A stretch of DNA of 64,000 bases, taken from the NCBI RefSeq assembly GCF_035046485.1, contig NC_085138.1, positions 15,007,329 through 15,071,328 on the forward strand. The letters run 5' to 3'. The stretch is from Aedes albopictus. Taxonomy: Eukaryota; Arthropoda; Insecta; Diptera; Culicidae. Below, one piece after another: positions 24,975 through 62,500 of the stretch. A program made the position numbers and the translations under genes. How positions within the stretch are numbered: position 1 is the first letter of the stretch; every line of letters starts with the position of its first letter. Below the pieces are notes generated by a model, which had not been told where the DNA came from, ran no database searches, and saw nothing but the letters and a program-made list of their open reading frames with translations.

Positions 24975-25044
24975 CAAATCTAAAACAGTCGTTTTGATTC
25001 CCCAAGACTGCAACGCCGATAAAGTAGCTAGATTTAAATAGAAC

Positions 25045-34224: not shown

Positions 34225-35110
34225 GTATGCTAGAAACATAGAAAACCAGCTGATTTTCAGACTTTTCCAACTGTGTCCAACCAGCGGACGAAAGTGCATC
34301 AGCTGGAAGGTAATTTGGACGTGTCGAGGGAGAAGATTTTTTCCCGGTGAGTTGCAACAGCAGCAGCAGCGTCATCATTAATGAATGGAGAGTGTGGTGA
34401 TTTTTTTTCTGGTTTCTTCTGTTCTTCATTTCATGAGGTGGCCACCAAGCGAAGCAAAAAGCACATGTTTTGCATCCTTCTGAGCCCCGGCTGGCTGGAT
34501 AGCTAGCCGGCCCGGCAGGAGGAGAACTGCTCAGCGAAGCGAGTTTCCAAATGCGATATTTATATCCTTTATCCAAGCCATTAAATAAAACGTCCATAAA
34601 GATTTTTCCGCTGCAGCAAGCGTTGTTTCTTGCAGCGCAGTCATCGCCACGTTGTTGGATTCAAATCGAAATTAGCTGGGACTTTTCACGCTCCAAACTG
34701 CTCGCGGCTGGAGGCGTGCCGGAGGGCTGGGGGCTCTGATTTTTAATTCTTTCTCCAGGGTTTCGCCGGTTTTTTTTTCTCCGGCTTGGCCGGTGCCGCC
34801 ATCCGAAGAGATAAATTGGAAAATAAGAATCGCAAGCGCGGGTTCGAATCTCGGCGTGTGACGGGAAAAAGGGCCATCAAGCGTGACAGACGACGAGAAC
34901 GGACTTCTAATGAGTCGTTTCGTGCGTCGTCGTCTTTCCATGTGTGATAATTTCCCCCTTGTTGTCATTTTATCGAGGTTTTTTTGATGCAACATATGAT
35001 GGAGCATGTATAAGAGAAGCATGGAAAAAGGGAAAAATGCCATTTTATCAATAAGATGCAATAAAGATTTCTGCTGGAACTCATATCAAATAAAATATTT
35101 TTTTCTGTAA
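34225..35110. other. Complex noncoding DNA
   Basis: Includes GCAGCAGCAGC at about 34361, a GC-rich stretch at 34480-34540 and an isolated B-box-like GGTTCGAATCTC at about 34841 without a clear A box. I do not recognise a gene. Confidence 0.35.
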
Positions 35111-38100
35111 TCTTCCAAGAATTTATTCGAATTTTTTTGTAATATCTGACAATCAGAAATTCCACCGGATATTATTAAAGAAATTCCACTGGTGATTTCT
35201 CCAGAAATTTCACTAAGAATGTAGTTAGATACTCTTGCATGGATTACTGCGGAAATTTTTACATTTTCTCCAAAATTTCAAAAAATCTTCAAAAAATTTG
35301 AAAACTTTTTCAGAATTTTCTCAAAGAGCTTCTTCCGGAAGTCTCACAGGAATTCTTTCACAAATTCCTTGAAAAAATCATTCAAGAATTTATTAGAATG
35401 TGTTTTACGAGATTGCTTTAGAAAAATCGTCCAGTATTTCTCCAAAAATTTCACGAAAATTCCTTAAAAAATCTAAAATGGATTGCTTCAGAAATTTTTC
35501 CGATAATGTCTTCAGAAATTTTTGCAGAGATTCCTTCACAATTTTTTTTTCGAAAATTCCTTGAAGCGTTCCTTGGATTTTTTTTTCAAAATTTGCTCCA
35601 GGAATTCAATTATAGATTCTTTCAAAAAAGCCCTCAAAGGTTCTCTTCTGCAAGCATTCCTTAGGGGGAATTTAGTAATTTCGCCAAGGATTTTTTCAAA
35701 AACTTTACAATAGATTCCTCCAGAAATTTCATGAATAATTCTTTTAGAAATTTTTACATGGTTTGCTGCTGAAAGTCCTTCTTGAATATCTTTGGAAAAT
35801 CTTAAAAATCCACAAAAACTTTTAGGAATTTTCTCCATGGATTTCTTTCAAAATTCCTACAGGAATTCATTCAAAAATTCCAACAAAAAATCTTCTAAGG
35901 ATTCATTTGAATGTGTTTTCAAAGATTACTTTAGAAAGTTCTTCAGGGAATCTTTACGAAGTTGCAGTAGAGACTCCTCCAGAAACTGCACAAATGATTC
36001 TTTCAGAAAACTTTGAATGAATTGTTTCCGAAGTTTCTCCGACAATTTCTTCAGAAATTCTTCCACGGGTTCCTTCTTAATTTTGTTTTCTAAATTCTTA
36101 TTAGAAGTTTTTCTAGAGGTTTAAAAGAAAAACTTTGGAAACTTCCTTCAGAAATTATTTGAGGCGTTCCTTGGGAAATTTCTTCAAGAATTGCTACAGG
36201 AATTTCATTACGGATTTTTTCGAAAAAGCCTCAAGAGGTCTGTTTGGAAGTCTTCATCAGGGGCAATTAAGGAATTCCACCAGGGATTTTTTTTTTTCAG
36301 AACTTCCACTAAGGATTCCTTCAGAAATTTCACGAAGAATTCCTTTGAAAAATCTTTGCTGCTGAAATTTCTCCTTGAATTTATTTGGAAAAACTTCAAA
36401 AATCAAAAATATTTTTTGGAATTATTCCCAAGGATTTCTCACGAAATTTCCACAGGAATTGTGCTACGAATTCTTCCATCAAATCTTCCAAAGATTCATT
36501 TGAATGTTATTTTAATGCTTTCTTTAGAAATTCCCATTTTTTTAGAAGTTTTAAAAGAGATCCCTACAAATGATTCTTTCAAACATTCTCGAATGAATCG
36601 CTTCATTATTTTTTCCGAGAATTTCATTAGAAATTCTTCCAAAGATTCCTTCACTAATTGTTCTAGATACTTGATCAGAAGTTCTTCTAGAGGTTCATCA
36701 CAATAACTTCAGAAAAACTTCTTTCAGAAAATACTCGAGGCAATTACATTACGGATTCTTTCGATAAATCCTCATAGGTTCTATTTGCTCATTTTTCTAA
36801 GGAATTGCTCTAGAAATTCTGTCAGGGATTATTCTAGGAACGCCTCTAGGGATTCCTCCAGAAATTTCATGAACCATTCTTTTGAAAAATTCTTTCATGG
36901 GAATCCTATCACGAAGTCTTTCAAAAAATCTATTACTTGTTTTTTTTATTGTCAAGGATTGCTTAAGAATATTATTCGGGGGTTTCTTATGAAATCACGA
37001 TACAGATTTCTCCAGAAATTTCACAAATATTTTTTTTTGAATATCTCGAATTGATGTTTAAGAAATTTCTCCGAAAATTTCTTCATAAATTCTTCCTTAT
37101 CTAAGGATTTTTTTCACATATATTAGAAAAACTTTCGAAAATTTTTCGAGAAACACGTCTAGGAATTTCTGATGGAATTTTTGAAAGTTTTTCTTGATGA
37201 ACTTCCACAAGAATTTCCTAATAAATATCTAGAGAAATTTTCTTCAAGAAATGCTCGGGAAATTCATGAAGGATTAATTCAAAAAATCTTCAAAGTATGC
37301 ATTAAAACTTTCTCTGCGGATTTCTTTAAAGAATTCACCATAAACTCCTAAAAGAACTCGTTTTGAAAATGTCGCATGGTTTATTTCTGAAATGTCCCCA
37401 TGAATTTCTTCAGAAATTTCTCCTTCTTTAGAAACTCCTACACGATTGGCCTTAGAAAGCCTCACAAAGTTTTCTTTATAAAGTTCTTCAAAAAGGCTTT
37501 GAATATGTTTTCCAGGAATTATTTTGGAATTTAGTCTATGGATTCCTTCAAAACCTTCCTCACGCATTACATTAGATAATCTTCCATTGATTCCGTAAGT
37601 ATTTCTTGCAGGGATTATTTTAGGAAGTCTTCCAGGGACAATTCAACAATTTCTTTAGTAATTTCGCCATAAAATGTTTCTCGAATTCATTTGGAAAATT
37701 TCTCCGAAAAAAACCCGGATAATTTCAAAAATTATTTTGGTTTTTTTTTTCAAAATTTATTTTACAGTTTTCTTTTGAAACTTCGCCAAGGATTCCTTTA
37801 GGAAACCTTCAAAAGTTTATTTTAAGAAAATTTTCCATGTGACCTTCAGAAATTCCTAAAATAATTTCTCCAAGATTTCTTCTAGAATAAGTTCCGAAAT
37901 TCCTCTAGAGATTACTACTTCGTGGATGTCTTTAGAAAACCTTTCCTAGATTTTTTCAGTAAATTCGCCATGGTTTGTTTTTTAGAAAATACTTCAGAGA
38001 TTCATCAAAACATACGTGGAAATTCCCCAAAAAAATAAAAAATAAAAAAAAATGATTCTATAAAAAAAACCTCAGACATTCCTTCAGTGTTTTTTTTTTC

Positions 38101-41100
38101 GAAATCCCTCCAGATATTCCACAGGTTTTTTGGAAATTTGTCCGGAGATTCCTTAAGAAAATTAGAGTTTCGGAATTCCGTTTGGAATTCCTCCTAAACG
38201 TTTCTTTCAGAAGCTTCAAAATCTTCCATGGATCAATCCAGAATTGCTTTAGGAGTTCCTTTAGAAATTTCTCCTTGAATTGTTTCAGAAAGCCATCCAC
38301 AGATACTTTCATTAACTACTCCAGGAATTTCTGCATAGTGTTATTCAATGATTATTTCTTCCAGCGTCTCTATAAAACTTCGCCAGATAAATCGAAAATT
38401 TTCCCAAAGATTCCTGTAGAAAGCCTTTTCAAAACTTCATTGGAAACTCCTCCAGAAATCTGTTTTAGGATTTTAAAGAACCCTCCAGGGATTTCTTCAG
38501 AAATTTATCAAGATATCCCTTCACATTTTTTCCATGAATTTCGTTCAAAAATTCCTCTTATAAGTCCATCAGGAATTCTTCCAGACTTTGCTTCTGAAAT
38601 TCCTTTTAAAAATTCCTTCAGTTATTCTTAATTGACTTTTTGCAAACCTTCCATTGGTTTCCTTACTAAATTCTCCTTAGATTCCTTTAGAAAATTCATT
38701 AGGAATTCCTCTACAGATTTTTCCAGAAATTTCTCCAAAAAAATCAGACGAATAATTCCTTAATAGTTCCTTTACAGGTTCTCCTGATATTTATTTCGAA
38801 AATCTCCTATGGATTAAAAAATAATCAGAAATTCTACTAGAGGTTCATCAGAAAAACATCTAAAAATTCTGGAATACTTCCAGAAATTTCACGAAGAATT
38901 CTTTTAAAAAAATTGAAAAGCAAACAAAAATTCCTCATTGAATTTCTCTAGATATTCTTCCATAAAATCTTCAAAATCACGAATGCTATCTTAAAAGTTT
39001 CTTTGAAAATTCATTCAATTTTTTTTTTCAAGAATTGCTTTAAAATGTTATTCAGGTATTCGTTAAGGAATTGCAATGGTATTACAATTGATTCGTTTAG
39101 AAAATCTTGAATGGATTGCTTGAGAAAATCTTGAATGGATTTCTTCAGAAATTCTTCCAGGGATTACTTCTCAAATTTCTTTCAATATTTGCTCAGAAAT
39201 CTTTTCGAGGTTGTTATGATTACAAAAATTTCTTCGGAAGTTTCTGGAAACGGTCCTTGGGAAATTTCTTCATGAATTGAAGGATTGCCTTCCTCCTTCA
39301 TGATTTTTCAAGGGAATTCTGGAGGAATTTTCCGTAAGATTGCTTTATAAATTCGGCTATGGTTGTCTTAACAAAATCATTCAGAGTTTTATTTAAAAAA
39401 ATCAGAAATGCTTTCAGTATGTTTTCTAGGAATTTCTACAAAATTTAGTCCAAGTGTTCCTCCAAAAGCTTTCTCAAGTACTACATAATACAATCTCCCA
39501 TTGATACCTTCACAATTTCTTCCAGGCAATCTTTTAGGAAATTTTACAGGGACTCCTTCCAAAAAATCCTCTAGTGGTTCTGTCATAAAATGTTTTGAGG
39601 ATTCATTTGAAAGCTGCATTGAGAAATTTCTTCAGAAATTCTTCAAGGGGTTCCTTCAGAAAATCCTCAAGATCTTTCTTCTTAGATGTTTCTAAGAATT
39701 CCTTTGGAAAACCTACGAGGGATTTTTTTGGAAAGTTTCTATGAGTTTTTAAGAAATTTATCTTTTTTTTAGGAATTCTTTCAGACTTTGCTTTAGAAAT
39801 TCTCCTAAAAAATCCTCCAATAACTCCTTTATGGATTCTTTTCAAAAATCTTCCTCAGTAATTCCTCCATTGTTGCCATTAGATTTTCTGTTAATGATTT
39901 CTCTTCAGATTCCTCCAGAATTTTTTTTCCGAAAAATGCTTTTAGAAAAAAATCATTGAACATATATATTTTTTAAATTCATCGGAAATCCCTCTATGTT
40001 TTTTTTAGAAATCCCTCCAGATATATAAGCCGAAAGTTATCCACGGATTCCATAAAACATTCCCTCTTAAAAAAATAAACATTTTGAAAAATTCTTTGGG
40101 AAATTCTTCAAGGTGTTACTTGGGAAATTTCTTAAAAAAGTTCCCCAGGAATTCCGTTGTGTTTACATTTGAAACATCCTTCAAGGATTCATTGCAAGTC
40201 ATTTTCAGGAATTTCTATAAAAAATCCAACAGAATTTTTTATTTGTTTTTAATTTGCATAGGTTGCTTCTGACATTCCTCTATGAATTTCTTTGTAAGTT
40301 TCGCCATGGATTTCTACAGAATGATTCCAAAAAGAAGTAGTTTCTCGAAGGATTCTTTTAGATATTCCTCCGTGATTGCTTTTATAAAATCTCACACAGA
40401 TTTCTTTGGAATTCTTCGAAAAGGCTTTCAGTTTGTTTTCCGTTATTTTAGAATTATCTAAATTCTAAGGATTCCTCCAAAAATTCTCCGAGTATTACAT
40501 TGATTTTTTAAGAATTTCTTCCAAAGATGCTTTCAAGAGATCTCTCACTTTTTTTTCAGAAATTACTCAAGAAAATCTGCCATTAAATGTTTAGAGATTT
40601 CGTTTAGAAATTATCTTCATGGATATCTCCAGCAATTCTTCCAGGGACTCCTTCATTAAGTTTTTTCTGATTTTTTTAAAGAATTTCTTTTAAAAAACTT
40701 CGACGCTTTTTTCTAAGTTTTCCATGAATTTCCATAATGCCTTTGCATCAGAAATAACTCTACAAATTCCTCCAGTAACTCCTTCTTGTATTCATTCAGA
40801 AAATGCATGAGGGATAACTCTGAAAACACTTCAAACTGCATACACTTTTTCAATAATTCTTTCAGAAATTCCTTCAGAGATTTTGTACGAATTTTCTCCA
40901 GCAGTTCTTTTAGATATTTCTTAAAGAATTTGTTCTGAAATTCCTCCAAAAATTTCCGTAGAAAGTCTTTCATGGATTACCTCTGAATTTTTTTTCAGGG
41001 TTTTAAAGAACCCGCCAGGGATTCTTTGAAAATTTCTCCATATATTCCTTCAGTTTTTTTTTTCTAGAGATTCCTTCAGAAAATCCTTCAAGAATTCCCT

Positions 41101-42800
41101 TGAAAATTCCTCCGGAGATTTTTGAGAAAATTATCTAAAAATTCTTACACATTCTTCCTGTTTGTTCAGAAATGTTTTTAGGAATTTCTTCAGGCATTTC
41201 CTCCAGGTTATCTTTCAGAAATTCCACTGGGCATTCCTGAAAAGCTGTCCAAGTAACATTTTGATGACCAATTAGTCTTGTAGAGGTTTCGGAAACCGTC
41301 ATAAAGCCTAATTGCTTTTATTTTGGTTCTAAGATGGTTCAAAGAACCTCTTCCAGTATATTTGACTAAAAATGTTACTTGGAAGGATTTCTTTAGCGAT
41401 TATTCCTGTTAATCTAACATGATATTTTTCAAAATTACCACCAGGAATTTAACCAAAAATTTCTGCAGAGGTTTGTACAAAACTTTTTGTACGAAACCTC
41501 CTTTTTGTACTTCCCCAGAAATTCCACTAGGATATCCTCTAATTATCTTCATGGATATCTCCAGAAATTCTTCCAGGGACTCCATCATTAAGTTTTGTCC
41601 TGATTTTTTTCAAGAATCTCTTCAAAAACTTTCGACGATTTTTTTAAGTTTTCCATGAGTTTCCATAAGTCCTTTGTATCACAAATTACTCTACAAGTTC
41701 CTCCAGTAATTCCTTCTTGGATTCCTTCAGAAAATGCATGAGGGTAACTCTGAAAAATTATGCAGAGATTTTTCAAAAAATACTTTAAAAAAATCCACGA
41801 AATAATTCGTCGGAAATTCTTTATTATTTTACGAAAATTTTCAAGAAAATATTTCGAAAAATATATTTGGTAGGATTTTACCGAATATATTTTCCAAATA
41901 GTTTTCTTTAAAAATTTCTCCCGGAATTGTTTAAAAAAATTCACCCATGGATTCTTTCAGGAATTACTCCAGGGAGTTACTGCAAACAATTTTTCAATAA
42001 CTCTTTCAGAAATTCCTTCAGGGATTCTGTACGAAATTTCTCCAGCATTTCCTTTAGCATTTTTTTTTTCTGAAATTCTTCCTGATTGTTCAGAAATGTT
42101 TTGAGGAATTTCTTCAGGCAGTTTTTCCAGGTTTTCTTTCGAGAATTTCTTCATGAACTCCACTGAGCAGTCCTGAAAAACTGACTCCAAGGATTTCTTT
42201 AAGGAGTATTCCAAATAGTCTAACGTGATTTCTTTCAAAGGTTCCACCAGGAATTTCACCAAAAAAATCTGCAGAAGTTCGAACAAAACTTTTTGTAGGA
42301 AAACCTCCGGTTATTCCTTTCTATACTTTCATAGAAATTCCTCTAGGGATTTCTTCACGGATTCCTTCAGGAATTTATTTTTGATTTTTTTTCTAAAATT
42401 TCCATTTTTTTCATTTCTTCAGCATTTTTCCATTCTCCTTTAAAAAAATATCGTCCAGATGTTTCTCAAAATAGTTTTCAAGTTTTATTAACATAAGTTT
42501 ATCGATTTGTTTATCCAGCAATTTCTTCAGACATACATCCACGAATTCGTTCAGAAAATCATCTAGGATTAAAATATATCAAGTGTTTTTGTTTTAGGAT
42601 TTCATACGGGGATTTCTCAAGAGATTTCTCAGGTATAAAATCCTGCGTTGTATTGTTTATGAGTTTGATTTGGATATTCTTCCAAAGTTCCATTCCAATT
42701 TTCCAAAAAAAATTCAAAAATTTCTCCGAGGATTTTCAAAAAACTCTTTCAGATTTTTTTTTAAAAATATTCATCCAGGGATTTTTTCAGAAGCTCTTTT
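35111..42800. repeat. Large AT-rich decayed array (AATTCCTTCAGAAATTTC type)
   Basis: Nearly 7.7 kb in which words such as TTCCTTCAGAAATTTCTCC and AATTCTTCCAGGGATTCC recur about every 24-36 bases. The consensus resembles the GAATTCCT...AGGAATTC unit of the young 23-bp arrays, so this looks like an old relative. The many 60-170-codon frames on both strands are by-products of a stop-poor repeat. Two larger duplicated segments (about 0.8 kb period) lie at about 40.6-42.3 kb. A MITE sits at 41249-41382. Confidence 0.85.
41249..41382. mobile_element. MITE family A, best-preserved copy
   Basis: Begins CCAAGTAACATTTTGATGAC and ends GACTAAAAATGTTACTTGG. The 134-bp palindromic core contains GGTTTCGGAAACCGTCATAA and TTTTGGTTCTAAGATGG. 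A paralogous segment 0.8 kb downstream lacks it, which defines the insertion point to within about two bases. Confidence 0.88.
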
Positions 42801-46130: not shown

Positions 46131-46387
46131 GGTGGGTGTAGACCTGTGCGCCGCCGCGCCACGCCGCCGCCGCCGACACTTTTTGTCCCACGCCGACGCC
46201 GATCGAGGTATCGGCGGCGCGCCATACGCCGCTGTTTGTCACGCCGCCGATTTTCATTTTTCGCGCCGGTGATCAGTGTACGAATAAAATTAAGTTTATA
46301 TAAAGTTAAGATAAAAAAAAATCTCACGATTACTATCCTTTTTCCCTGTCCAACTTCATTGAGACATCAGTTCAGATGAAGAGATTC

Positions 46388-46390
46388 ATA

Positions 46391-46421
<31 letters not shown>
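46388..46421 (+). repeat. (AAAT)n microsatellite
   Basis: About eight AAAT/AAATA units in a row, just before the satellite block inside the giant element. Confidence 0.9.
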
Positions 46422-46439
46422 GAGTTTGATTACAGTAAC

Positions 46440-49400
46440 TGATTTCACAACTCTTAGAACACACATTCACATCTCTTCAGAAGTTTCTTCAGAGAATCTT
46501 GCAGAAGGATTCAGTGATGCCTTCTGGAGATCCACCTAGGATTCCTCCAGAAAAATCTTCAGGGATGCCTCCATGATGATTTTTTTTTTCTGAAGATCTC
46601 TCAGGAAGATCTCGACAGGAGTACTTTCAAAAATTATTTCAGGAGAATTCAGGGATGCCTACTAGAGTCACATCAGAGATTCATCCAGAAGATCCTTCAG
46701 GAATTCTCACAGGAGGTCCTTTAGAGATTAGTCTAAGAGTACCTTCAGGAATTCCTACAGGAGTTTCTCTAGTATCTAGTCCAGGAGTTTCCTCAGAGAT
46801 TCCTCCAGGAGATCCATCAGAAATTCCTGGAATTTATTCAAGAATCCCTCCTGAAAATCTTTCGGGGATTCCTCTTGGAATTACTTCAGGATACCTCAAG
46901 AAAAATTTGCAGAGATTCTTTCAGGAGTTCTTCAAGGATTGCTCCAGAATTTCCTTCGGTAATCTCTCCAGGAGTTCGCTCAGGTGTTTTCCTAATACTG
47001 CCCCACTCGCATAACAGTCCCATTTGCAAAAAGTAGGAATTGAGAAAACGGCATTTGAAGTTTGAAAACTTGTTTCCATATAAAATTTTGAAAAATCGCC
47101 AAATTTAGAAAAATATTTCGATCATCTCGAAACTTTCACAGATTGCTTTGCACATGAATATATAACTGTAAAAAGTATTACAATCACTACAAAGTTGTTC
47201 AGTTTTGTGTTACGTAACACAAAAATCCATGATGGGACTATCATGCGGGTACTTTTGATATGAGACGCTCATAACTTGGTATTTTTTTCACACATTGACA
47301 GAAAAAAAATCGTTATTTTTATTGTTGTTTTTGGAAGTTCATCAAAAATGATGACTATTCATTACGTTAACTCAAAAGTGTTGAAAAGTCAAATAGGACT
47401 GTTATGCGAGTGGGGGCAGAATAGCTCCAGGAGAATTCAGGGATGCCTCCATGTGCTCATTAGGATTTCATTCAGAAGTTCCCTAAGCTATTTCAACGGG
47501 AGTTCGTTCAGGTATCCTTCTAGAAGTCCCTTTAAATATTCTTTCAGGAGAATTCATAAATGCCACCTGAAGATCCATGAAGTATCTCGTAAGAAGTTTC
47601 TTCAGGAATTCCCTCAGGATGTCTTTAGAAATTAGATAAGGAGTTCCTGCAGGGATTCCTTTTGAAGTACCATTAGAAATTCTTGCAGCAGTTCTTTCCA
47701 GGAGTTCCATCAGAGATTCCTCCAGGAGTTTCAGGGATTCTTGCAGATGCTTCTTCGAAGATTCCTACTGAATTTCTTCAGGGATTCTTACAGAAGTTCC
47801 TTCGGAAATCATTACAGAAATTCCTTCAGAGAATCTTATTCGAAGATCCAAGAATACCGCCTAGAGAACTCAGGGATTACCCCAGCAGTTTATACAGCGA
47901 TTCTTTCCAAGATTTCTTCATGATATCCTTAAGGGATTGTTCGAGAAGTTCTTCGAGGGATCACTCCTGGGGTTCTTTCAAATTGAAGATTGAGATTGAG
48001 ATTTTTTTTCGGGAAGACTCACGGATGCTTTCAGGAGTTACATCAGAGATTTCTCCAGCAGCTTATTCAGGAATTCCTACAGGAGTTCCTTCAGGGAATC
48101 TTGTAGGAGTTCCTTCAATAATTGCCTTAGGATTATAATCAGTCATATCTCCAAGATATTCTGAGTGATCTTTCATGGAGTTTCTACAAAAAAATCTTCA
48201 AGAATTTCCTTCTAAAATTCTTTAGAGAATACATCCTGCAAATCCTTCCCCCTACCCAGAAAGATCAGCTGAAAATCCTTCGAGGATTCCGCCTGGAAAT
48301 CCTGTGGATATTACTACCGGAATTCCTTCGAGAATTTCCCTGGAATCCCTTCAGGGATTTCTCCTGTAATTTCTTCGGGAATTCCTCCTAGACTTCCTTC
48401 AGGGGTTCCCCAGGAATTCCTTCGAGGATTCCTCCTAGCTTTTTCCTGTAATTCTTTCGGGGATCCCTCTTGGAACTCCTCCGGAGATTCTTCCTAGATT
48501 TTCTTTCAGGGTTTCCTCCTTGACTTCCTTCGAGGATTCCTCCTGGAATTCTTTCGGGGATTCCTACTAATTTTCCGTCAAATTTCTTTGGTGGTTCCTC
48601 TTAGAATTCTTTCGGAGAATCCACCAGGACTGCTCATGGAATTCCCCCAGGGATTTCTCCTGCATTCCATTTAAGGATTCCTCTTGGGTTACCTTAGGGC
48701 ATTCCTCCTAGAATTCATTCAGCAATGTCTTCTGGAATTCCTTTGGGGATTCGTTTTGGAATTTCTTCGGGTATTCCTCCATATGATGAATGTATGAGGG
48801 GGTAGCGGGTATGAATCAACCTTCATAGATTCCTCCTGAAATTCTTTCAGGACTTTCTCCTGATATTTTAACGTAGATTTCTCGTGAAATATTTCCGGGG
48901 TTTCCTCCTGGAATTACTTTGATCATTGCTCTTAGAATTTCTTCGGAGATTCTTCCTGGATTTGTTTCAGTGATTCCTCATGGAATTCCTTCGGGAGTCC
49001 TTCTGCAATTCCTTTGCTATTTCTTTCTGGAATTGTTTCAGTGACTTCTCCTAGAATTCCTTCAGGGATTCATCCTGGAATTCATTGGGAGATTTTTTCT
49101 GGACTTCCTATGGGAATTCCTCTTAATAATCCTTCGAGTATTCCGCTTGGAAATCCTTCGAAGATTTCTTCCAGTTTTCCTTTATGGGTTCCCTCACGGG
49201 ATTACTGCAGAGATATCTCCTTTCATTTCTTCGGGAATTTCTCCAGGAATTCTTCCAGGAATCCTGTCGCATATTCCTGCTGGACCTCCTTCAGGGATTT
49301 CTCTTAGACTTCCTTCGGGGATTCCTCCTGGAATTAATTCGAAGATTCCTTCTTAAATTCCTTCGGGGATTCCTTCTAGAGTTCCTTCGGGGATTTCTCC

Positions 49401-51508
49401 TGAAATTTCTTTGAGGATTCTTCCTGAAATTCCTACGGAAATTCCTCTTCGATTTCCTTTCGGAGATATCTCCTGGAATTTTTTCGGGGTTTCCTCTTGG
49501 AATTCCTGCGGGAACTCCTCCTAGAATTATTTCAGGGGTTTCTCATGTAATTCCTACGAGGATCCCACCTGGATATTTTTCGATTTATTTTGAATAATAT
49601 CCGAAATATTTTGAAAATTTCTTCTCGAATTCCTTAAAAAATAAAAATCTGAAATTTCTTTGGGGATTCCTCCTGGACTTCCTTCATCAAATCCTCCTGA
49701 GATTTTTTTCGTGAATTCCTCCTGGAATTCCTTCGAATATTCGTGATTCCTCTTAGATTTCCTTCAGAGATTCTGCCTTTCATTCATTCAAAAAATCCTC
49801 ATGGAATCACTCATCCTGGAGTTCCTTCGGGATTTACTGCTTGAACTTCTTCAGTGATTTCTAGAATTCCTTTGTGAATTTCTCCTGGTATTCTAAGATT
49901 CTTTCTAGAGTTCCTTCGAGGATTCCTTTTTAAATTTCTTTGAAGATTCCTCTTCCACTTCCTATGGGGATTCGTCTTATTACTTCTTCGGGGTTTCCTT
50001 TTTGGAAGAATCCGCTTGTAATTCCTTCGGAGATTCCTCCCGGAGTTCCTTTTGAGGTGACCTTTGGGATTCCTACAGGGATTTCTCTTGTAATTTCTTC
50101 GGGAATTCTTTCTAGACTTCTTTCGCAGATACCTCCTAAAATTCATTCGGGGATTTCTCCTGGATCGGGGATTACTCCTGGAATTCCTTTGGTGATTAAT
50201 CTTTTCTGGAATTCCTTCGGTGATTCATCCTAGAATTCTTTTGAAAATATCTCCTGGAATTCTGTCGGGGATTTCTCTTGGAATTCCTTCGGGGATTCCT
50301 CCTAGAGTAATTTCTGGGATTCCTTTTAGAATTCCTTCGGGGGTTTCTTTTGAGCGGTTCTTCCTTCAAGGATTCTTCCTTCGTAGATTCCTCCTGATAT
50401 TTTGTCGGGGATTCCTTCTGGATTTCCTTCGGGATTCCATCTTGAAATTTCTAAGGTGATTCCTATTCGAATTTCTACACAGATTCCTTCTAGAATTCCT
50501 TCGGGGGTCCCTCACGGAATTCCTCCAGGAATTCGTCTTATAATTCCTCCGGGGATTCTTCCTAGAATTCCTTCGGAGTTTCCTGCTGGAATACCTCATG
50601 GGATTCCTCCTGAAATTCCTCCAAGGATTCCTCATGGAATTCTTCGGAAATTCCTCCTAGTATTCTCTCTGGGATTTCTGCTGGAATTCCTTCAGAGATT
50701 CCTTCTCAATATTTTTCGTTGATTCCTCCTTGAAATCCTTTGAAGATTCTTTCTCGATATTCTTCAGAATTTTCCGCTAGAATTCCGTCGGGGATTGCTC
50801 CTGGAATTCCTTTGGAAATTCCTTCTAGAATTCCTTCGGGGGTCCCTCACGGAATTCCTCCGGGGGTTTCGCTTAGAATTCCTCCAGGGTTTCGTCTTAG
50901 AATTCCTCCGGGGATTCTTTCTAGAATTCCTTCGGAGTTTCCTGCTGGAATACCTCATGGGATTCCTCATGGGATTCCTCCTGAAATTCCTCCAAGGATT
51001 CCTCATGGAATTTTTTCGGAAATTCCTCCTAGTATTCTCTCTGGGATTTCTGTGGAATTCCTTCAGAGATTCCTTCTCAATACGAAAACGTTGATTCCTC
51101 CTTGAAATCCTTTGGAGATTCCTTCTCGAAATTCTTCAGAATTTTCCGCTAGAATTCCGTCGGGGATTGCTCCTGGAATTCCTTTGGAAATTCCTGCAGT
51201 AGTTCCCTTGGGGTTCCTGCTTGAATTCATTTGGGGAAGGAATCCTCCTGGAATTTCTTTCGAAGATTCGTCCTGGATTTTTTTTTTGCGGAAATTTCTC
51301 GAAAACTTTAATTTCTTCAGAATTTTCTGCAGAGATCTCTAAAAGAGAATCTTCAACCGCCAGAGATTCCTGCAGAAGTTTATGCAGGGTTTCATACAGC
51401 AGTTCTTGCAGAGATTAGTCCAGAATTTTCCTCTTGGATTTCTTCATGAGTTTCTTTCAGGCTCCTAGGATTCCTTCTGAGATTCCTCCCTGAAATCATT
51501 CGAGGATT
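46440..51508. repeat. Tandem repeat block inside the giant element (GGAATTCCTTCGGGGATTCC type)
   Basis: The 24-bp-scale unit has core words GGAATTCCTTCGGGGATTCC and TCCT, less degraded at 48.3-51.2 kb than at 46.4-48.2 kb. A higher-order period of about 360-370 bp is visible: TCCTGCTGGAATACCTCATG occurs at 50581 and 50940, and CGTTGATTCCTCCTTGAAAT at 50718 and 51089. A MITE splits the block at 46998-47419. Frames with repeating I-P-S-G or R-R-N motifs are repeat translations, not genes. Confidence 0.88.
46994..47423. mobile_element. MITE with CTGCCCCACTCGCATAACAG termini
   Basis: Left end CTGCCCCACTCGCATAACAG at 46998 and right end the complement of CTGCCCCCACTCGCATAACA ending at 47419 (422 bp). 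AATA flanks both ends (46994-46997, 47420-47423), either a 4-bp duplication or a TA duplication by chance extended. It is inserted in the satellite within the giant element and is therefore younger than that array. Confidence 0.82.
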
Positions 51509-51646
51509 CCTTAGTGTAAATAGTGTGACTTTATTATCAAATTTGATAGCTTCTGAAGACTCTGAGAAACCAAAACAAAAAACTGTAGCAAAATCAATAT
51601 TTCATTGCCCTTTATTTGCAATGGAGTAACGTTCATTACACTAAGG
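51509..51646. mobile_element. Small MITE-like element (CCTTAGTGTAA termini)
   Basis: CCTTAGTGTAA at 51509 and its exact complement TTACACTAAGG ending at 51646 bound 138 bp. No clear target duplication, so the call rests on the 11-bp inverted repeat. Confidence 0.5.
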
Positions 51647-52144
51647 ATACCGCTAATGTCTCAATATTCCTTTCCAATTATGAATATTTGTTAACCCTAA
51701 TCTCGAAACACCCGCGAGTACTTCGGCTTCCCAAACTAATATAGTATTAAGGCAGTTAAAAATATGAAAAATGTAAACAACGTGAAAACAAAAATGTGTA
51801 ATCATTTCGGCTCATTTATGCCCATCCCAACAAACATTTAAGCTGTACAGAAATGGAAGAAAAATAACTCTTGAGCAAACTTTAGTTAAAGAAACTGTCA
51901 TTCAACTAGTTCTGTTTCTTGGGATGGGGCGTCCAAGCCTTCCAAATAAACGAATAAGTAAAAAAAAAAATCGCAATAGGTCTAATTACGCAGTGACGAA
52001 CCCGAACAGAAATAAAAAAGTTATTCATTTTAACGTAATAGTTTATGTCATCAATGGTCATAAAAAAGCTCAGACTAAAAATTCAAGAGCGTAATGACAA
52101 CTTTTTCGCTTTGCCAATATTTAAATTATAGTCAAATTTTGGTC
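51647..52144. other. Right internal part of the giant element
   Basis: AT-rich sequence without tandem structure. At 51821-51929 CCCATCCCAACAAAC and the complement of CCCATCCCAAGAAAC bound a possible 109-bp MITE. No open frame is worth reporting. Confidence 0.4.
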
Positions 52145-52281
52145 ACGCCGATTCACGCCGCCGCCGCCGCCGCCGAGAGCTGCCACCGGCGTGACGCCGA
52201 TGACGCCGCCGCCGCCGGTCAAAAATGGCCCTCACGCCGCCGCCGAGCAAAATATAGTCGGCGCACAGGTCTAGGTGGGTG

Positions 52282-53069: not shown

Positions 53070-53545
53070 GTTGAACCCCGTGGAGTTCCCCTGAACCACC
53101 CGAAACACCTTAAAACGCCTCAAAACGTGTCGGATCTACGCCCGCTCCTACTGAAAACTTCCAAAAGCTCCTCTGAAGCGCTGTAAAAGTCCCTACAAAC
53201 TCTTTGAAACTTCCTGAAACGCCATGTAGCGTCTCTGATACTCCCTTGAAGATCACCTGGAAGCCTGGCGAATCTCTCTCTCTCTCCTCAAAGTCCCCCA
53301 GGAACCATCTGAAACACCCGGGAACACATTGAGACGCCTTCAAAACTCCTTTGAATCGCATCTGAAAGCCTAGAAACCCCCTGAAGCTCAGCTGAAAGCC
53401 TTGAAGTCTCTCAAAACCCTTTGGAAATCCCTTGAAACGACTTGAAACGATTTGAAACGTCATGAAATGCCATGAAACGTTTCTGAAACTTCACTGAAGC
53501 TCTCCTAAAAGCCTCAACAGCGACTATACGGCTAAACGAATTTCT
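53070..53545. repeat. Decayed repeat (CTGAAACGCCTTGAAA type)
   Basis: Words CTGAAACACC, CTTGAAACGA and CTGAAAGCCT recur at roughly 14-30-base spacing. It directly precedes the 23-bp satellite. Confidence 0.65.
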
Positions 53546-55690
53546 TGAGGAATTCTATATGAATTCCTGGAGGAATTTTACAACAACTCCTTGAGGAATT
53601 CCACACGAATTCCTTGAGAAATTCTACACGAACTCCTGAATGAATTCAGCATGAACTTCTGGACGAATTCTGCACGAAATCCTTGAGGAATTCTGCACGA
53701 ATTCCTGGAGGAATTTTGCACGAATTCCTGGAGGAATTCTGCACGAATTCCTGGAGGAATTCTGCACGAATTCCTGGAGGAATTCTGCACGAATTCCTGG
53801 AGGAATTCTGCACGAATTCCTGGAGGAATTCTGCACGAATTCCTGGAGGAATTCTGCACGAATTCCTGGAGGAATTCTGCACGAATTCCTGGAGGAATTC
53901 TGCACGAATTCCTGGAGGAATTCTGCACGAATTCCTGGAGGAATTCTGCACGAATTCCTGGAGGAATTCTGCACGAATTCCTGGAGGAATTCTGCACGAA
54001 TTCCTGGAGGAATTCTGCACGAATTCCTGGAGGAATTCTGCACGAATTCCTGGAGGAATTCTGCACGAATTCCTGGAGGAATTCTGCACGAATTCCTGGA
54101 GGAATTCTGCACGAATTCCTGGAGGAATTCTGCACGAATTCCTGGAGGAATTCTGCACGAATTCCTGGAGGAATTCTGCACGAATTCCTGGAGGAATTCT
54201 GCACGAATTCCTGGAGGAGTTCTGCACGAATTCCTGGAGGAGTTCTGCACGAATTCCTGGAGGAGTTCTGCACGAATTCCTGGAGGAATTCTGCACGAAT
54301 TCCTGGAGGAATTCTGCACGAATTCCTGGAGGAATTCTGCACGAATTCCTGGAGGAATTCTGCACGAATTCCTGGAGGAATTCTGCACGAATTCCTGGAG
54401 GAATTCTGCACGAATTCCTGGAGGAATTCTGCACGAATTCCTGGAGGAATTCTACACGAATTCCTGGAGGAATTCTACACGAATTCCTGGAGGAATTCTA
54501 CACGAATTCCTGAAGGAATTCTACACGAATTCCTGAAGGAATTCTACACGAATTCCTGGAGGAATTCTACACTAATTCCTGGAGGAATTCTACGCAAATT
54601 CCTGGAGGAATTCTACGCGAATTCCTGGAGGAATTCTACGCGAATTCCTGGAGGAATTCTACGCGAATTCCTGGGGGAATTCTACGCGAATTCCTGAAGG
54701 AATTCTACATGAATTCCTGGAGGAATTCTACATGAATTCCTGGAGGAATTCTATATGAATTCCTGGAGGAATTCTACACGAGCTCCTGGAGGAATTCTAC
54801 ACGAATTCCTGGAGGAATTCCGCACGAATTCCTGGAGGAATTCCTGGAGGAATTCTACACGAGAATTCCCAGAGGAATTGTACAAGAATTCCCAGAGGAA
54901 TTGTACAAGAATTCCCAGAGCAATTGTACAAGAATTCCCAGAGGAATTGTACAAGAATTCCCAGAGGAATTGCACAAGAATTCCTAGAGGAATTGTACAA
55001 GAATTCCCAGAGGAATTGTACAAGAATTCCCGGAGGAATTGTACAAGAATTCCCGGAGGAATTGTACAAGAATTCCCAGAGGAATTCTACAAGAATTCCC
55101 AGAAGAATTTTACAAGAATTTCCAAAGGAATTCTACAAGAATTCCCAGAGGAATTCTACAAGAATTCCCAGAGGAATTCTACAAGAATTCCCAGAGGAAT
55201 TCTACAAGAATTCTCAGAGGAATTCTTCAAGAATTCCCGGAGGAATTCTACAAGAATTCCCGGAGAAATTCCACAAGAATTTCCGGAGGAATTCTACAAA
55301 AATTCCTGGAGGAATTCTACTAGAATTTCCAGAGGAAATATACAAGAATTTCCAGAGGAATTCCACACGCATTTCCAGAGGAATTCTACAAGAATTTCCA
55401 GAGGAGTTCAACTAGAACTTTCAGAGGAATTCTACTAGAATTTCCAGAGGAATTCTACTAGAATTTCTAGAGGAATTGTACAAGAATTTCCAGACGAATT
55501 CTACAAGATTTTTCAGACGAATTCTACTATAAATTCCAAAGGAATCCTACAAGAATTTCCAGATCAATTCTTCAAGGGTTTCCAGATGAATTGCACAAGA
55601 AATTTCAGACAAATTCTACAAGATTTTCCAGACGAATTCTACGAGTATTTCCAAAGAAATCCCACAAGAATTTCTACAAGAATTCCCAGT
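53546..55690 (+). repeat. 23-bp satellite array, orientation 1 (about 90 units)
   Basis: The monomer is GAATTCCTGGAGGAATTC followed by the 5-base spacer TGCAC. It holds two EcoRI sites around an 8-bp inverted repeat with a GG centre. From about 53.70 to 54.46 kb copies are nearly identical. Toward the right the spacer changes to TACAC, then TACAA, and the core to CCCAGAGG then TTCCAGAGG. Because 23 is not a multiple of 3 and the monomer lacks stops in most frames, long frames run across it on both strands, each with a 23-residue periodic peptide; these are not genes. The homogeneous centre with decayed edges is the classical pattern of unequal exchange. Confidence 0.96.
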
Positions 55691-57119
55691 GGATTCCAAT
55701 TGGAATGGAATTGGAATGGAATTGGAATGGAATTGGAATGGAATTGGAATGGAATTGGAATGGAATTGGAATGGAATTGGAATGGAATTGGAATGGAATT
55801 GGAATGGAATTGGAATGGAATTGGAATGGAATTGGAATGGAATTGGAATGGAATTGGAATGGAATTGGAATGGAATTGGAATGGAATTGGAATGGAATTG
55901 GAATGGAATTGGAATGGAATTGGAATGGAATTGGAATGGAATTGGAATGGAATTGGAATGGAATTGGAATGGAATTGGAATGGAATTGGAATGGAATTGG
56001 AATGGAATTGGAATGGAATTGGAATGGAATTGGAATGGAATTGGAATGGAATTGGAATGGAATTGGAATGGAATTGGAATGGAATTGGAATGGAATTGGA
56101 ATGGAATTGGAATGGAATTGGAATGGAATTGGAATGGAATTGGAATGGAATTGGAATGGAATTGGAATGGAATTGGAATGGAATTGGAATGGAATTGGAA
56201 TGGAATTGGAATGGAATTGGAATGGAATTGGAATGGAATTGGAATGGAATTGGAATGGAATTGGAATGGAATTGGAATGGAATTGGAATGGAATTGGAAT
56301 GGAATTGGAATGGAATTGGAATGGAATTGGAATGGAATTGGAATGGAATTGGAATGGAATTGGAATGGAATTGGAATGGAATTGGAATGGAATTGGAATG
56401 GAATTGGAATGGAATTGGAATGGAATTGGAATGGAATTGGAATGGAATTGGAATGGAATTGGAATGGAATTGGAATGGAATTGGAATGGAATTGGAATGG
56501 AATTGGAATGGAATTGGAATGGAATTGGAATTGAATTGGAATGGAATTGGAATGGAATTGGAATGGAATTGGAATGGAATTGGAATGGAATTGGAATGGA
56601 ATTGGAATGGAATTGGAATGGAATTGGAATGGAATTGGAATGGAATTGGAATGGAATTGGAATGGAATTGGAATGGAATTGGAATGGAATTGGAATGGAA
56701 TTGGAATGGAATTGGAATGGAATTGGAATGGAATTGGAATGGAATTGGAATGGAATTGGAATGGAATTGGAATGGAATTGGAATGGAATTGGAATGGAAT
56801 TGGAATGGAATTGGAATGGAATTGGAATGGAATTGGAATGGAATTGGAATGGAATTGGAATGGAATTGGAATGGAATTGGAATGGAATTGGAATGGAATT
56901 GGAATGGAATTGGAATGGAATTGGAATGGAATTGGAATGGAATTGGAATGGAATTGGAATGGAATTGGAATGGAATTGGAATGGAATTGGAATGGAATTG
57001 GAATGGAATTGGAATGGAATTGGAATGGAATTGGAATGGAATTGGAATGGAATTGGAATGGAATTGGAATGGAATTGGAATGGAATTGGAATGGAATTGG
57101 AATGGAATCGGAATGGAAT
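55691..57119 (+). repeat. 11-bp satellite (GGAATGGAATT)n, about 130 copies
   Basis: Uninterrupted GGAATGGAATT units with almost no variants (one GGAATTGAATT near 56526 and a GGAATC near 57106). All six frames are open because no stop can form. Two GGAAT pentamers plus T make the unit closely related to the GGAAT repeat of human satellite II/III, by convergence. It directly abuts the decayed right edge of the 23-bp array. Confidence 0.97.
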
Positions 57120-58769
57120 TTACATTACGCATTTGAGACCTAACCGTATTCCTCCTTAAAACCAATTAAACTTCTAATTGTTGCTTGGAAGGCTTTAGAA
57201 TAATAGTGATGGGTTATTTTCAAGAATGATTACTGGTTTTTTTGATGTGAATGTTTTTATGATCCCATTTATTTCAGTTTCAAACTGCGCTCAGCTTCAT
57301 CCAAGGCTTTTAACTAGCCTTCTCAAAACTTCAACCAATATATCACCGGGATTACATACTAACTCCACATCCAATCCAGTTGTAGAACATCGATATAATG
57401 GACCCCTTTTTGTGGAAACCTCAGCCCTGGTTCACAAGCCACTAACGAACGCAAAGAAGCATGGGGAGAGATGAAACCCCATGTGACAGCCAACTAGTGT
57501 CATGACAATCAAAAAACGACAGGATATAAAGCACAAACTATGACTGCTACAGTGGACCGGACCGGATCGGATCGGAGTCGTCGTCTCAATCAAATTGTTG
57601 CTCCTGCAGTTGCCTACCACAACAGAAAAAGAAAGCTCCGGAAAAAGGGTAGCCAAACCCTGGAAATCTTTTCTTCTTTTCCCTTTTATTGTAGGAAAGT
57701 GCAGAGAATCGAGATCCGTTGTCGGTCGTTCGAGTCTCCAAAATGCAAGGAAGGATGGGAGGTCTCTTTGATTAAGGGATTTCTGATAGTGTTCCCCTCC
57801 CCTGTGTACCTTGATGTTCTGGTTTTGCAAATATTTACTACAATAACATTATAGATTGTGACGCTCCAGAAGTGAGCAACTTGGTTCCCCCGTCCGTAAC
57901 CAAACGGGAAGGAGCTTTTTCGGGATATTGTTGGGACTCGTCTTCTTTTTCGGTTTTTGCAGAAGACGACGACGGTGATTGAAACCGATTGTGCCTGGGA
58001 ATGGCATTATGATGACTCCATATGCAAATGAAACTAGCTTCCCCGCCGCTCGTCCATGGTGGTCTGGTCAATTGAAGGATGCTGGTCCATGGTCCACTGA
58101 CCATGGATGGGTTGAACACAAGCACACTCACTCTCACACAGTTGATTGGGTGTTTGAAATGTGTGTTTTTGTTGTGTAATATGGGCAAATATGCCAGAAG
58201 CCAGAGCCAGGGTGGACCTAGGTCCACCGCACCAGCAAACCAAGGAAGGAGCAGGGGGACCAGATTGGAAACAAAGTCCGATGGAGAGTGTCACAGTTGT
58301 TTTGTCATCCTCTAGAATTGGTGATATTTGAAGGAACGGGGATCGGTTGGGTCAGGAAACAAGATACGGTTAAGATTGGAATGGACAGTTCCGTTCGGAT
58401 TGGTTTCGTTGCTCTGAATTGGAAATATGTTGGTTTTCGCAGCAGGTGGGACATTTGAAGGGGACCAGGGGGTGTGAGAAAAGCAAACTTCTAATAAATA
58501 TTGCTTCACTTTTTGGTTTCTCCTGTTTGCGATTGTTCAAATATTAAATAGTGTGTTTCGGGTGGGGTTTTCGTTGTGGAGGCTTCGGTTGAGCTTAGAT
58601 TTGATGGGTGATTAATTTTGTGGTTTTACGGTTTCTTTTCCTATTTTGAACACTTTCTATCAGCAGCTTTATCACTGGATTCATTAGCAAGTTTGAGGTT
58701 CAGATAAATTTGAAACTTGAGTATAGAAATGTTATGTTTTGTGATTATTTGTGATTTTGTGAAGTATTA
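57120..58769. other. Complex noncoding DNA
   Basis: Starts with a fragment resembling the end of MITE family A (AAAACCAATTAAACTTCTAA ... TTGCTTGG, about 57157-57190). A GGTCCATGGTCCACTGACCA dyad lies at 58085-58104. Frames of 60-130 codons on both strands show no domain. Confidence 0.4.
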
Positions 58770-59185
58770 ATCTCTAGCAGTGTTGAAAAATTCATTTCGC
58801 CATATCTAAATTCAATCACCTACAGCTCATTTTAGAAGCTGAACCAGAGAATATGGTATATGAAAAACTTGTGCAGCTAGACCAGTTCTGCAAGAAAGTC
58901 ACGGAAAAACTGCTGTTTTTCGAATATTTAAGGTAAATGTCACGGACTACCTTCGAAAAATCCCAATGATATTCACGGTGAATATCATTTGGCATTTTTC
59001 GAAGGTAGTCCGTGACATTTACATTAAATATTCGAAAAATAGCAGTTTTTCCGTGACTTTCTTGCAGAATCGGTCTAGCCGCACAAGTTTTTCATATACC
59101 ATGTTCTCAGGTTCAGCTTCTAAAATGAGCTGTTGGTGGTTGAATTTAGATATGACGAAATGAATTTTTCAGCACTGATCTCTAG
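58770..59185. mobile_element. Palindromic hAT MITE, 400 bp, with 8-bp target duplication
   Basis: ATCTCTAG stands on both sides (58770-58777 and 59178-59185). The element 58778-59177 starts CAGTGTTGAAAAATTC and ends in the complement of CAGTGCTGAAAAATTC. The two halves are complementary over almost the full 200 bp, meeting at a small centre near 58970-58985. CAGTG termini and an 8-bp duplication identify a hAT-type MITE. A transcript would form a roughly 190-bp double-stranded hairpin. Confidence 0.93.
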
Positions 59186-59575
59186 GTTTAGGATTGCCTT
59201 GAAAAGGTTTTATATTGGCCTTGATACAGTCTTGCAACGTCTTTGGATTGCCTTTAAACTGGATATGAAGCTTCAAGTTGTGTTAAATTCTTCAATTGAG
59301 CAAAAACTGCTATGATTTATGATTGTCTGATTCTATAGACAGAGGATTATCTTAAATTGGTTATAAAACGGCTTTAAAATTGCCTTGGAAAAGGAATATC
59401 CTTGTATTGTCTTTAGATTAGAATTAAATGGCTTTCGATGCATTTTATTTTTCGACTGGATAAAATTAGGTAGAATTTGTTCATGAGTTACGCGGCAAAT
59501 TTTCTTAATACTAAAGAAAAATATATTTAAGAGTTTTTTCCGGAAATTGTTTGTGAGGTATCTACAAGATTTTTT
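59186..59575. other. AT-rich noncoding spacer
   Basis: Unique-looking sequence between the palindromic MITE and the second 23-bp array. Words like TTGCCTTGAAAAGG / TTGCCTTTAAACTGG hint at an old short repeat. No gene. Confidence 0.4.
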
Positions 59576-62500
59576 TGTAGAATTCCTCTAGCAATTCGTA
59601 CAGAATTCTTCTAGAAAATCGTGTAGAATTCTTCCAGGAATTCGTGTATTCTACAATTCGAGAAGAATTCCTCTAGGAATTCGTGTGGAATTCCTCTAGG
59701 AATTCGTGTAGAATTTCTCTAGGAATTCGTGTAGAATTGCTCGAGGAATTCGTGTAGAATTCCTATAGGAATTCGTGTACAAATTCCTTCATGAGTTCGT
59801 TTAGAATTCCTCTAGGAATTCGTGTAGAATTCCTCTAGGAATTCGTGTAGAATTCCTCTAGGAATTCGTGTAGAATTCCTCTAGGAATTCGTGTAGAATT
59901 CCTCTAGGAATTCGTGAAGAGTTCCTCTAGGAATTCGTGAAGAGTTCCTCTAGGAATTCGTGAAGAGTTCCTCTAGGAATTCGTGTAGAATTCCTCTAGG
60001 AATTCGTGTAGAATTCCTCTAGGAATTCATGTAGAATTACTCTAGGAATTCATGTAGAATTCCTCTAGGAATTCGTGAAGAATTCCCCTAGGAATTCATA
60101 TAGAATTCCTCTAGGAATTCGTGTAGAATTCCTCTAGGAATTCGTGTAGAATTCCTCCAGGAATTCATGTAGAATTCCTCCAGGAATTCGTGTAGAATTC
60201 CTCTAGGAATTCGTGTAGAATTCCTCTAGGAATTCGTATAGAATTCCTCTAGGAATTCGTATAGAACTCCTCTAGGAATTCGTGTCGAATTCCCCCAGGA
60301 ATTTCGAGTCGAATTCCCCTAGGAATTCGAGTCGAATTCCTCTAGGAATTCGTGTAGAATTCCTCTAGGAATTCGTGCAGAATTGCTCTAGGAATTCGTG
60401 TAGAATTCCTCTAAGAATTTGTGTACAAATTCCTTCAGGAGTTCGTGCAGAATTCCTCTAGGTATTCGTGTAGAATTTCTCTAGGAATTCGTGAAGAATT
60501 CGTGAAGAATTTCTCTAGGAATTCGTGTAGAATTCCTCTAGGAATTCGTGTAGAATTCCTCTAGGAATTCGTGTAGAATTCCTCTAGGAATTCGTGTAGA
60601 ATTCCTCTAGGAATTCGTGTAGAATTCCTCTAGAAATTCATGTAGAATTCCTCTAGGAATTCATGTAGAATTCCTCTAGGAATTCGTGTAGAATTCCTCT
60701 AGGAATTCGTGTAGAATTCCTCTAGGAATTCGTGTAGAATTCCTCTAGGAATTCGTGTAGAATTCCTCTAGGAATTCGTGTAGAATTCCTCTAGGAATTC
60801 GTGTAGAATTCCTCTAGGAATTCGTGTAGAATTCCTCTAGGAATTCGTGTAGAATTCCTCTAGGAATTCGTGTAGAATTCCTCTAGGAATTCGTGTAGAA
60901 TTCCTCTAGGAATTCGTGTAGAATTGCTCTAGGAATTCGTGTACAATTCCTCTAGGAATTCGTGTACAATTCCTCTAGGAATTCGTGTACAATTCCTCTA
61001 GGAATTCGTGTACAATTCCTCTAGGAATTCGTGTACAATTCCTCTAGGAATTCGTGTACAATTCCTCTAGGAATTCGTGTACAATTCCTCATGGAATTCG
61101 TATAGAATTCCTCTAGGAATTCGTGTAGAATTCCTCTAGGAATTCGTGTGGAATTCCTCAAGGAATTCGTGTGGAATTCCTCTAGGAATTCGTGTGGAAT
61201 TCCTCTAGGAATTCGTGTGGAATTCCTCTAGGAATACTTGGAGAATTCCTCTAGGAATTCTTGGAGAATTCCTCTAGGAATTCTTGGAGAATTCCTCTAG
61301 GAATTCTTGGAGAAGTCCTCTAGGAATTCTTGAAGAATTCCTCTAGGAATTCTTGGAGAATTCCTCTAGGAATTCTTGGAGAATTCCTCTAGAAATTCTT
61401 GGAGAATTCCTCTAGGAATTCTTGGAGAATTCCTCTAGGAATTCTTGGAGAATTCCTCTAGGAATTCTTGGAGAATTCCTCTAGGAATTCGTGTAGAATT
61501 CCTCTAGGAATTCGTGTAGAATTCCTCTAGGAATTCGTGTAGAATTCCTCTAGGAATTCGTGTAGAATTCCTCTAGGAATTCGTGTAGAATTCCTCTAGG
61601 AATTCGTGTAGAATTCCTCTAGGAATTCGTGTAGAGTTCCTCTAGGAATTCGTGTAGAGTTCCTCTAGGAATTCGTGTAGAGTTCCTCTAGGAATTCGTG
61701 TAGAATTCCTTCAGAAATTCGTGTAGAATTCCTCTAGGAATTCGTGCAGAATTCCTCTAGGAATTCGTGTAGAATTCCTCATAGAATTCGAGTAGAATTC
61801 CTCTAGGAATTCGTGTAGAATTCCCCTAGGAATTCGTGTAAAATTCCTCTAGAAATTCGTGTAGAATTCCTCTAGGAATTCGTGTAGAATTCCTCTAGGA
61901 ATTCGGGTAGAATTCCTCTAGGAATTCGTGTAGAATTCCTCTAGGAATTCGTGTAGAATTCCTCATGGAATTTGAGTAGAATTCCTCTAGGAATTCGTGT
62001 AGAATTCCCCTAGGAATTCGTGTAAAATTCCTCTAGAAATTCGTGTAGAATTCCTCTAGGAATTCGTGTAGAATTCCTCTAGGAATTCGTGTAGAATTCC
62101 TCTAGGAATTCGTGTAGAATTCCTCTAGGAATTCGTGTAGAATTCCTCTAGGAATTCGTGTAGAATTCCTCTAGGAATTCGTGTAGAATTCCTCTAGGAA
62201 TTCGTGTAGAATTCCTCTAGGAATTCGTGTAGAATTCCTCTAGGAATTCGTGTAGAATTCCTCTAGGAATTCGTGTAGAATTCCTCTAGGAATTCGTGTA
62301 GAATTCCTCTAGGAATTCGTGTAGAATTCCTCTAGAAATTCGTGTAGAATTCCTCTAGGAATTCGTGTAGAATTCCTCAAGGAATTCGTGTAGAATTCCT
62401 CTACGAATTCGTGTAGAATTCCTCTAGGAATTCGTGTAGAATTCCTCTAGGAATTCGTGTAGAATTCCTCTAGGAATTCGTGTAGAATTCCTCTAGGAAT

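Follow-up and report, generated by a model that had tools for sequence, protein, structure and literature searches.

Introduction

Helitrons constitute a separate rolling-circle class of mobile elements. Miniature inverted-repeat transposable elements (MITEs) with tandem repeats in their interior reportedly occur in Donax trunculus. Helitrons with central arrays likewise combine mobility with internal tandem repeats (PMC12628747), and transposons carrying such repeats have therefore already been described. The family treated here is a large, array-dominated variant of this kind. It is represented by one copy in a stretch of 64,000 nucleotides of the Aedes albopictus genome (assembly GCF_035046485.1, contig NC_085138.1, positions 15,007,329 to 15,071,328 of the forward strand; hereafter the window). 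This copy occupies positions 46139-52273 (6,135 bp) and has exact terminal inverted repeats (TIRs) of 15 bp and an exact 8-bp target site duplication (TSD), GGTGGGTG.

The element gadMor-hAT-1784 of Atlantic cod resembles the present family in being non-autonomous, assigned to hAT and composed largely of tandem repeats; the hAT-derived MITE-like accumulations in cod, with mean lengths of 1.3-5.8 kb, are a further likeness (PMC12368964). The cod repeats, however, are 167-169 bp long and build inverted repeats of about 600 bp (PMC12368964), whereas the present family has a 15-bp TIR, a central head-to-tail block of 24-bp monomers between unlike arms, and discrete TSD-flanked copies. Tetris, a foldback element of Drosophila virilis, is also non-autonomous, its internal tandem repeats also occur free in satellite-like form, and its structurally complete copies, of which only three are reported, have TSDs of 8-9 bp, close to the 8 bp found here (PMC4079207). 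It differs in that its repeats, each of about 220 bp, are located within TIRs that reach 1.7 kb (PMC4079207), in contrast to the 15-bp ends and central array of the present family, the arms of which are unlike past the first 15 bp, so that the long, repeat-containing TIRs of foldback or Tetris-like elements are absent.

The satellite-bearing MITE miDNA4 of Xenopus belongs to another superfamily (Tc1/mariner) and contains one monomer or a variable array (PMC12628747). BrickBuilt, a MITE of Porphyromonas gingivalis, shares a 23-nt minisatellite between leader and tail and small inverted-repeat ends, but is bacterial and intergenic, with 19 occurrences in ATCC 33277 (PMC4596501). Galileo, of the P superfamily, has an 8-bp TSD in three copies and, in the long TIRs of one copy, direct tandem repeats; its TSD is mostly of 7 bp (GTATTAC), and the TIRs of the described copies are much longer than those reported here (PMC4168063). 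Relative to these descriptions, the present family is set apart by consisting mostly of array, by the central position of this block, by its short and unlike arms, by its copy number and by the absence of short derivatives from the sample. The original prediction, made from the window alone, considered the window copy a candidate for something not described; the kind is in fact known, the hAT-derived cod elements included (PMC12368964), while none of the papers that topical full-text searches of open-licence literature brought up describes this particular family in its title or abstract opening.

Family members and pairing of ends

The host assembly (1.34 Gb) was searched with the 15-bp end TAGACCTGTGCGCCG of the window copy, and the units and ends found were labelled with L-numbers. 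Exact copies of the end numbered 1,145 (587 forward and 558 reverse), and the reversed pattern, used as a control, gave 0. The base following the end was A (right-arm type) in 594 and C (left-arm type) in 541, together 1,135 of the 1,145; in each of the 32 units that were read, the right arm likewise had A and the left arm C. The right end gave 0 matches in viral contigs, a set that may omit records near the host's own genome.

Neighbouring ends were paired on sequence C1 between 4 and 198 Mb (186 exact ends; 14 listed left ends beyond this range were left out). Among 65 facing pairs, 64 joined one left arm to one right arm, the sole remaining pair being an inverted duplication of one end. The left-right pairs measured 2,234-12,280 bp (median 5,513 bp, nested insertions included). 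None of the 64 was shorter than 2.2 kb, from which we infer that shorter pairs make up under about 5% of such pairs (95% confidence). Extrapolation from the 128 of 186 ends that were paired suggests a family of about 800 copies, which would occupy about 4.5 Mb (0.3% of the genome). The search for further copies that the original prediction had proposed was thus productive, and the window copy, which had been regarded as exceptional, turned out to be one among several hundred alike.

Short length is a limit for MITEs. High copy number, TIRs, TSDs and a non-coding interior (the long open reading frames of the units read satellite repeats, with few exceptions) are all features of the present family; a short length is not, given the lower limit of the 64 pairs.

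In one case (L019/L020, C1:23532964-23546884), a unit and its flank are tandemly duplicated with a step of 7.2 kb; both copies measure 6,712 bp and lie in a TCTAC microsatellite.

Satellite interior

An array of period 24 was detected by autocorrelation (period 24 with 12) in 32/32 rows that were read whole (31 on C1, both copies of the tandem duplication among them, plus the window unit), spanning 47-90% of their 200-bp windows. Head-to-tail tandem repetition was confirmed by Tandem Repeats Finder together with autocorrelation. The 624 monomers taken from five units have the consensus GATTCCTCCTGGAATTCCTTCGGG and a sub-period of 12 bp. Interior matches between units were almost wholly on the plus strand, and in each of the 465 pairs that 31 units form, the best interior match had the same direction with respect to the arms. 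The array is a component of the family, not a local accident.

The array moves whole, as is seen from four young copies (L016, L018, L025 and L028) that have four different TSDs and are 96.5-96.8% alike over 5.06-5.55 kb. Their array lengths differ mostly by small insertions or deletions; larger changes affect L025, which has an insertion of about 1.2 kb with a GIY-YIG-like frame, and L016, which lacks 404 bp. L022 (9,040 bp), a fifth member that was equally close by pairwise matches, was omitted from the four-copy alignment. Within this young subfamily, copying includes the entire array, which is mostly frozen; an internal duplication of at least 60 bp was present in only 4 of 31 units, the window copy included. 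Older collinear pairs (L024/L033, L013/L037 and L010/L035) have arms that are 94-98% identical and interiors at about 80%; for L024/L033, the values are 97.1% and 98.4% for the arms and 81.6% for the interior over 3,567 bp. Arms that are kept while the interior drifts are as expected if the mover needs only the ends.

Insertion as one piece

Exact 8-bp TSDs, no two of them alike, were found at 51 of 65 units (the window copy and 64 on C1): 25 of the 32 rows read whole, one of two long units covered piecewise, and 25 of 31 further units for which reading was limited to the ends. The TSD consensus is palindromic and GTCCGGAC-like; T at position 2 and A at position 7 account for 57 of 102 cases (P = 1.3e-8 against a flank frequency of 0.29).

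When the flanks of L026 were joined and one TSD was removed, the resulting sequence matched L045 over 992 bp with 97.18% identity and 0 gaps. The matching site, which lies in the reading frame of a non-LTR (long terminal repeat) retrotransposon, contains CCAATCAC once in L045, and the filled site of L026 contains CCAACCAC twice. L045 is a paralogous empty site, and 6,208 bp of satellite-bearing DNA arrived at L026 in one step. The TSDs and this site bear out the earlier claim of a mobile unit that takes satellite to new sites, and the units very probably form a family of TIR transposons whose satellite interior is moved as a whole.

Several observations weigh against this reading. No exact partner was found for 56 of the 186 ends (34 right, 22 left), and inspection of three of these (L046-L048) did not reveal a far end; mutated partner ends would explain such cases. 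An exact TSD is lacking in 14 of the 65 units: two have one mismatch, three share 6 bp, one is shifted by one base, one runs into masked N, two are the rows of the tandem-duplicated copy in the microsatellite, and five have no usable duplication. Between distant subfamilies, the interiors match at about 65%, which equals the match of the satellite with itself out of register, and collinear descent is therefore claimed only within subfamilies. The direction from free satellite to unit, which is discussed below, is moreover one that we infer.

The unpaired ends, and the nested and neighbouring tandem repeats that are common in the window, would also suit two independent short elements that flank a pre-existing satellite, the composite never having been mobile. 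This alternative, which had been named along with the original prediction, is exceedingly improbable and was rejected for the family: facing pairs almost invariably join a left to a right arm at 2.2-12.3 kb with no shorter left-right pair among those listed, the outer duplications match in most units, and one copy has a gap-free empty site.

Probable type of the transposase

The units would be moved by a transposase made elsewhere, most likely of hAT type, with the 15-bp ends and also the GC-rich subterminal arms as its recognition sites; the whole unit, usually of 4-7 kb, would be mobilised and inserted with an 8-bp duplication at GTCCGGAC-like sites. P-element ends begin with CA, and those of the present units begin with TAG, which argues against a transposase of the P superfamily moving the same mobile unit. 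The TIR length points the same way: 15 bp is within the 10-25 bp given for hAT elements (PMC3942097) and outside the 27-31 bp given for Anopheles P elements (PMC1562414). An 8-bp TSD suits hAT and, in combination with the GTCCGGAC motif, also the P superfamily. For hobo, the target motif is GTNCGNAC (also NTNNNNAN), and for the P element, it is GTCCGGAC (PMC3276498); since the TSD consensus agrees with both, it cannot decide between the superfamilies. A P-superfamily mover, favoured by the duplication length and this palindromic motif, is improbable on the whole. The family length of 2.2-12.3 kb (median 5.5 kb) compares with 2.5-5 kb stated for hAT elements (PMC3942097).

What counts against the hAT assignment is, besides the equal fit of the motif to P elements, the distribution of the hAT dimerisation domain PF05699. 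It has at least 138 matches in the genome (150 of 194 candidates scored), but none of the 17 from scored candidates on C1 below 198 Mb lies inside any of the 65 listed exact-end pairs. Only one of the 17 is within 10 kb of any of the 186 exact ends, a list that excludes units with mutated ends, and it lies outside the unit. Comparison of ten unit reading frames with Pfam gave no transposase: eight had no match at E 0.1, one had a weak match to TMC and one a match to GIY-YIG just below the cut-off. Of the earlier description as transposase-less and hAT-like, the first part stands; the second is unproven, TIR, TSD and motif being in agreement with it and the motif equally so with P.

The longest pair of ends, of 14.5 kb (L044/L045, C1:63574301-63588846), was considered as an autonomous copy and rejected, because it is an inverted duplication of one right-type end: the flanks are reverse complements, reading frames of a non-LTR retrotransposon lie between them, and the right-type end is divergent. 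A genome search with this end yielded 29 matches in 28 scored candidates. They comprised chiefly the end itself, ordinary right ends, which matched over 53 bases, and three additional divergent right ends; no form with a transposase appeared among them. In the 600-bp stretches of the three divergent ends, L113 matches the units well past the arm. To judge by eye, L112 continues into tandem-repeat-like DNA; the 600 bp of L111 contain no array.

Origin of the array

Besides being carried by the transposon, the same satellite exists in free form. Of 31 units, two (L010 and L021) are embedded in 24-bp arrays, with period self-matches of 51% and 77% around L010 and of 92% and 99% around L021, where the array is very homogeneous. 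The monomer of the free array around L021 equals the unit consensus at 23 of 24 bases, a value to be compared with at most 17 in 300 shuffles. This free array is oriented opposite to the array of L021 itself, which indicates that L021 was inserted into an existing free array.

An ancestor may be pictured as having taken up, once and in one orientation, a stretch of existing 24-bp satellite between its arms. From then on, the array would have been a mostly frozen passenger, subject to drift by point mutation and occasional internal duplication, with the arms kept. Growth of the array inside the transposon from a short seed, with free arrays such as that around L021 being seeded by units, is possible but doubtful. 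The 0.3-kb internal duplication of the window copy (91.3%), the near identity of free and unit-borne monomers, and the precedents Tetris (PMC4079207) and miDNA4 (PMC12628747) favour such growth. It is opposed by the rarity of internal duplications among the units, by the small size of most length differences between young arrays, and by the insertion of L021 into a free array of opposite orientation.

Window copy

The satellite-bearing transposon has the following features in the window, where its layout is left arm, period-24 array, short unique stretch and right arm:

46131-46138, no strand: left TSD copy, GGTGGGTG (direct reading)
46139-46153, plus strand: left 15-bp TIR, TAGACCTGTGCGCCG (direct reading)
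46139-46337, plus strand: left arm, GC-rich, with forward ACGCCG repeats
46694-51195, plus strand: degenerate 24-bp tandem array, split by a nested insertion (Tandem Repeats Finder, period-24 rows)
46998-47419, no strand: nested MITE-like insertion of 422 bp with ends CTGCCCC...GGGGCAG and 4-bp AATA on both sides
50517-50823 (unit 4379-4685), plus strand: internal 0.3-kb duplication, copy 1
50876-51195 (unit 4738-5057), plus strand: internal 0.3-kb duplication, copy 2
51511-51644, no strand: segment with inverted ends TTAGTGTAA / TTACACTAA, adjoining the array
52034-52273, plus strand: right arm, GC-rich, with ACGCCG again forward
52259-52273, minus strand: right 15-bp TIR, reverse complement of TAGACCTGTGCGCCG
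52274-52281, no strand: right TSD copy, GGTGGGTG (direct reading)

The exact TIRs and the 8-bp duplication that had been claimed are both present at these positions. With up to 3 mismatches allowed, TAGACCTGTGCGCCG matches the window at the two TIRs only. Exact 15-bp inverted repeats 300-13,000 bp apart that are combined with an exact 8-bp duplication number 2 in the window, and 40 dinucleotide shuffles yielded 0; the second pair probably lies inside palindromic 23-bp arrays (53603-61172). When the flanks of the window copy were compared with the assembly, its own two flanks were the sole match, and no paralogous empty site was found.

The median pairwise identity among 31 units is 91% for the first 178 bp of the left arm and 87% for the right arm. 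GC-rich ACGCCG repeats are found at both ends, as had been predicted, though in direct and not in inverted orientation: the medians are 5 forward and 0 reverse in the left 200 bp, 5 and 1 in the right 240 bp, and 0 per kb inside. By eye, the array extends from about 46450 to about 51500. The predicted array was confirmed, but not its size of about 5 kb, which is nearer 4.5 kb once the 422-bp nested insertion is discounted; relatives such as L023, L039, L034 and L024 are uninterrupted across the site of this insertion. The two copies of the internal duplication are offset by 359 bp, or about 15 monomers. The segment at 51511-51644 is probably an ancestral part of the family, since the surrounding stretch is common to L024, L033 and L113.

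Neighbouring sequences

A scan of the window for further units, in which an 8-bp duplication and a match at 11 or more of 13 TIR bases were required, gave 10 rows. Other satellite blocks of the window were rejected as further units, seven of the rows being GGAATTCC pairs inside arrays; the remaining rows were the window unit, a weak pair in an AT-rich block (35447-38731) and a short MITE-like pair (58778-59177). The latter is 400 bp long, with inverted ends CAGTGTTGAAAAATTCATTT / CAGTGCTGAAAAATTCATTT and an 8-bp duplication, ATCTCTAG.

Downstream of the unit are three arrays (53532-55672, 55698-57120 and 59576-63688), the outer two with a period of 23 bp and the one between with a period of 11 bp (AATTGGAATGG, 129 copies, 99% matches). 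All three are only distantly related to the 24-mer of the unit; between unit interiors and the 23-bp arrays (53-55 and 59-63 kb), most matches had about 64-70% identity. The AT-rich block at 35100-42800 contains short rows of degenerate 24-bp-like repeats and one weak TIR/TSD pair only, and has almost no match to unit interiors. At 23076-25024, inverted ends CTTTATCGGCG.TGCAGTCT, bordered on either side by the 6-bp TAGCTA, surround a reading frame of 474 aa, which we take by eye to be Penelope-like and to which Pfam assigned no family.

Conclusions

In non-autonomous families, short deletion derivatives normally win, and their absence from the sample is surprising for such a family. Since no sampled arm pair has shed its array despite long drift of the interior, the satellite might be a required part of the unit, the array or its length being needed for transposition or for escape from silencing. 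This seems unlikely; if it is true, such units would be a main route for keeping the 24-bp satellite scattered over the chromosomes and for seeding it anew. The spread of satellites is attributed to unequal exchange or to transposons that generate them as by-products. The present assembly contains hundreds of ends of discrete, datable transposon copies that consist mostly of satellite, together with a free homogeneous array of the same 24-bp monomer that has a unit inside, so that whether arrays loaded the transposons or transposons seeded the arrays becomes testable in a single genome.

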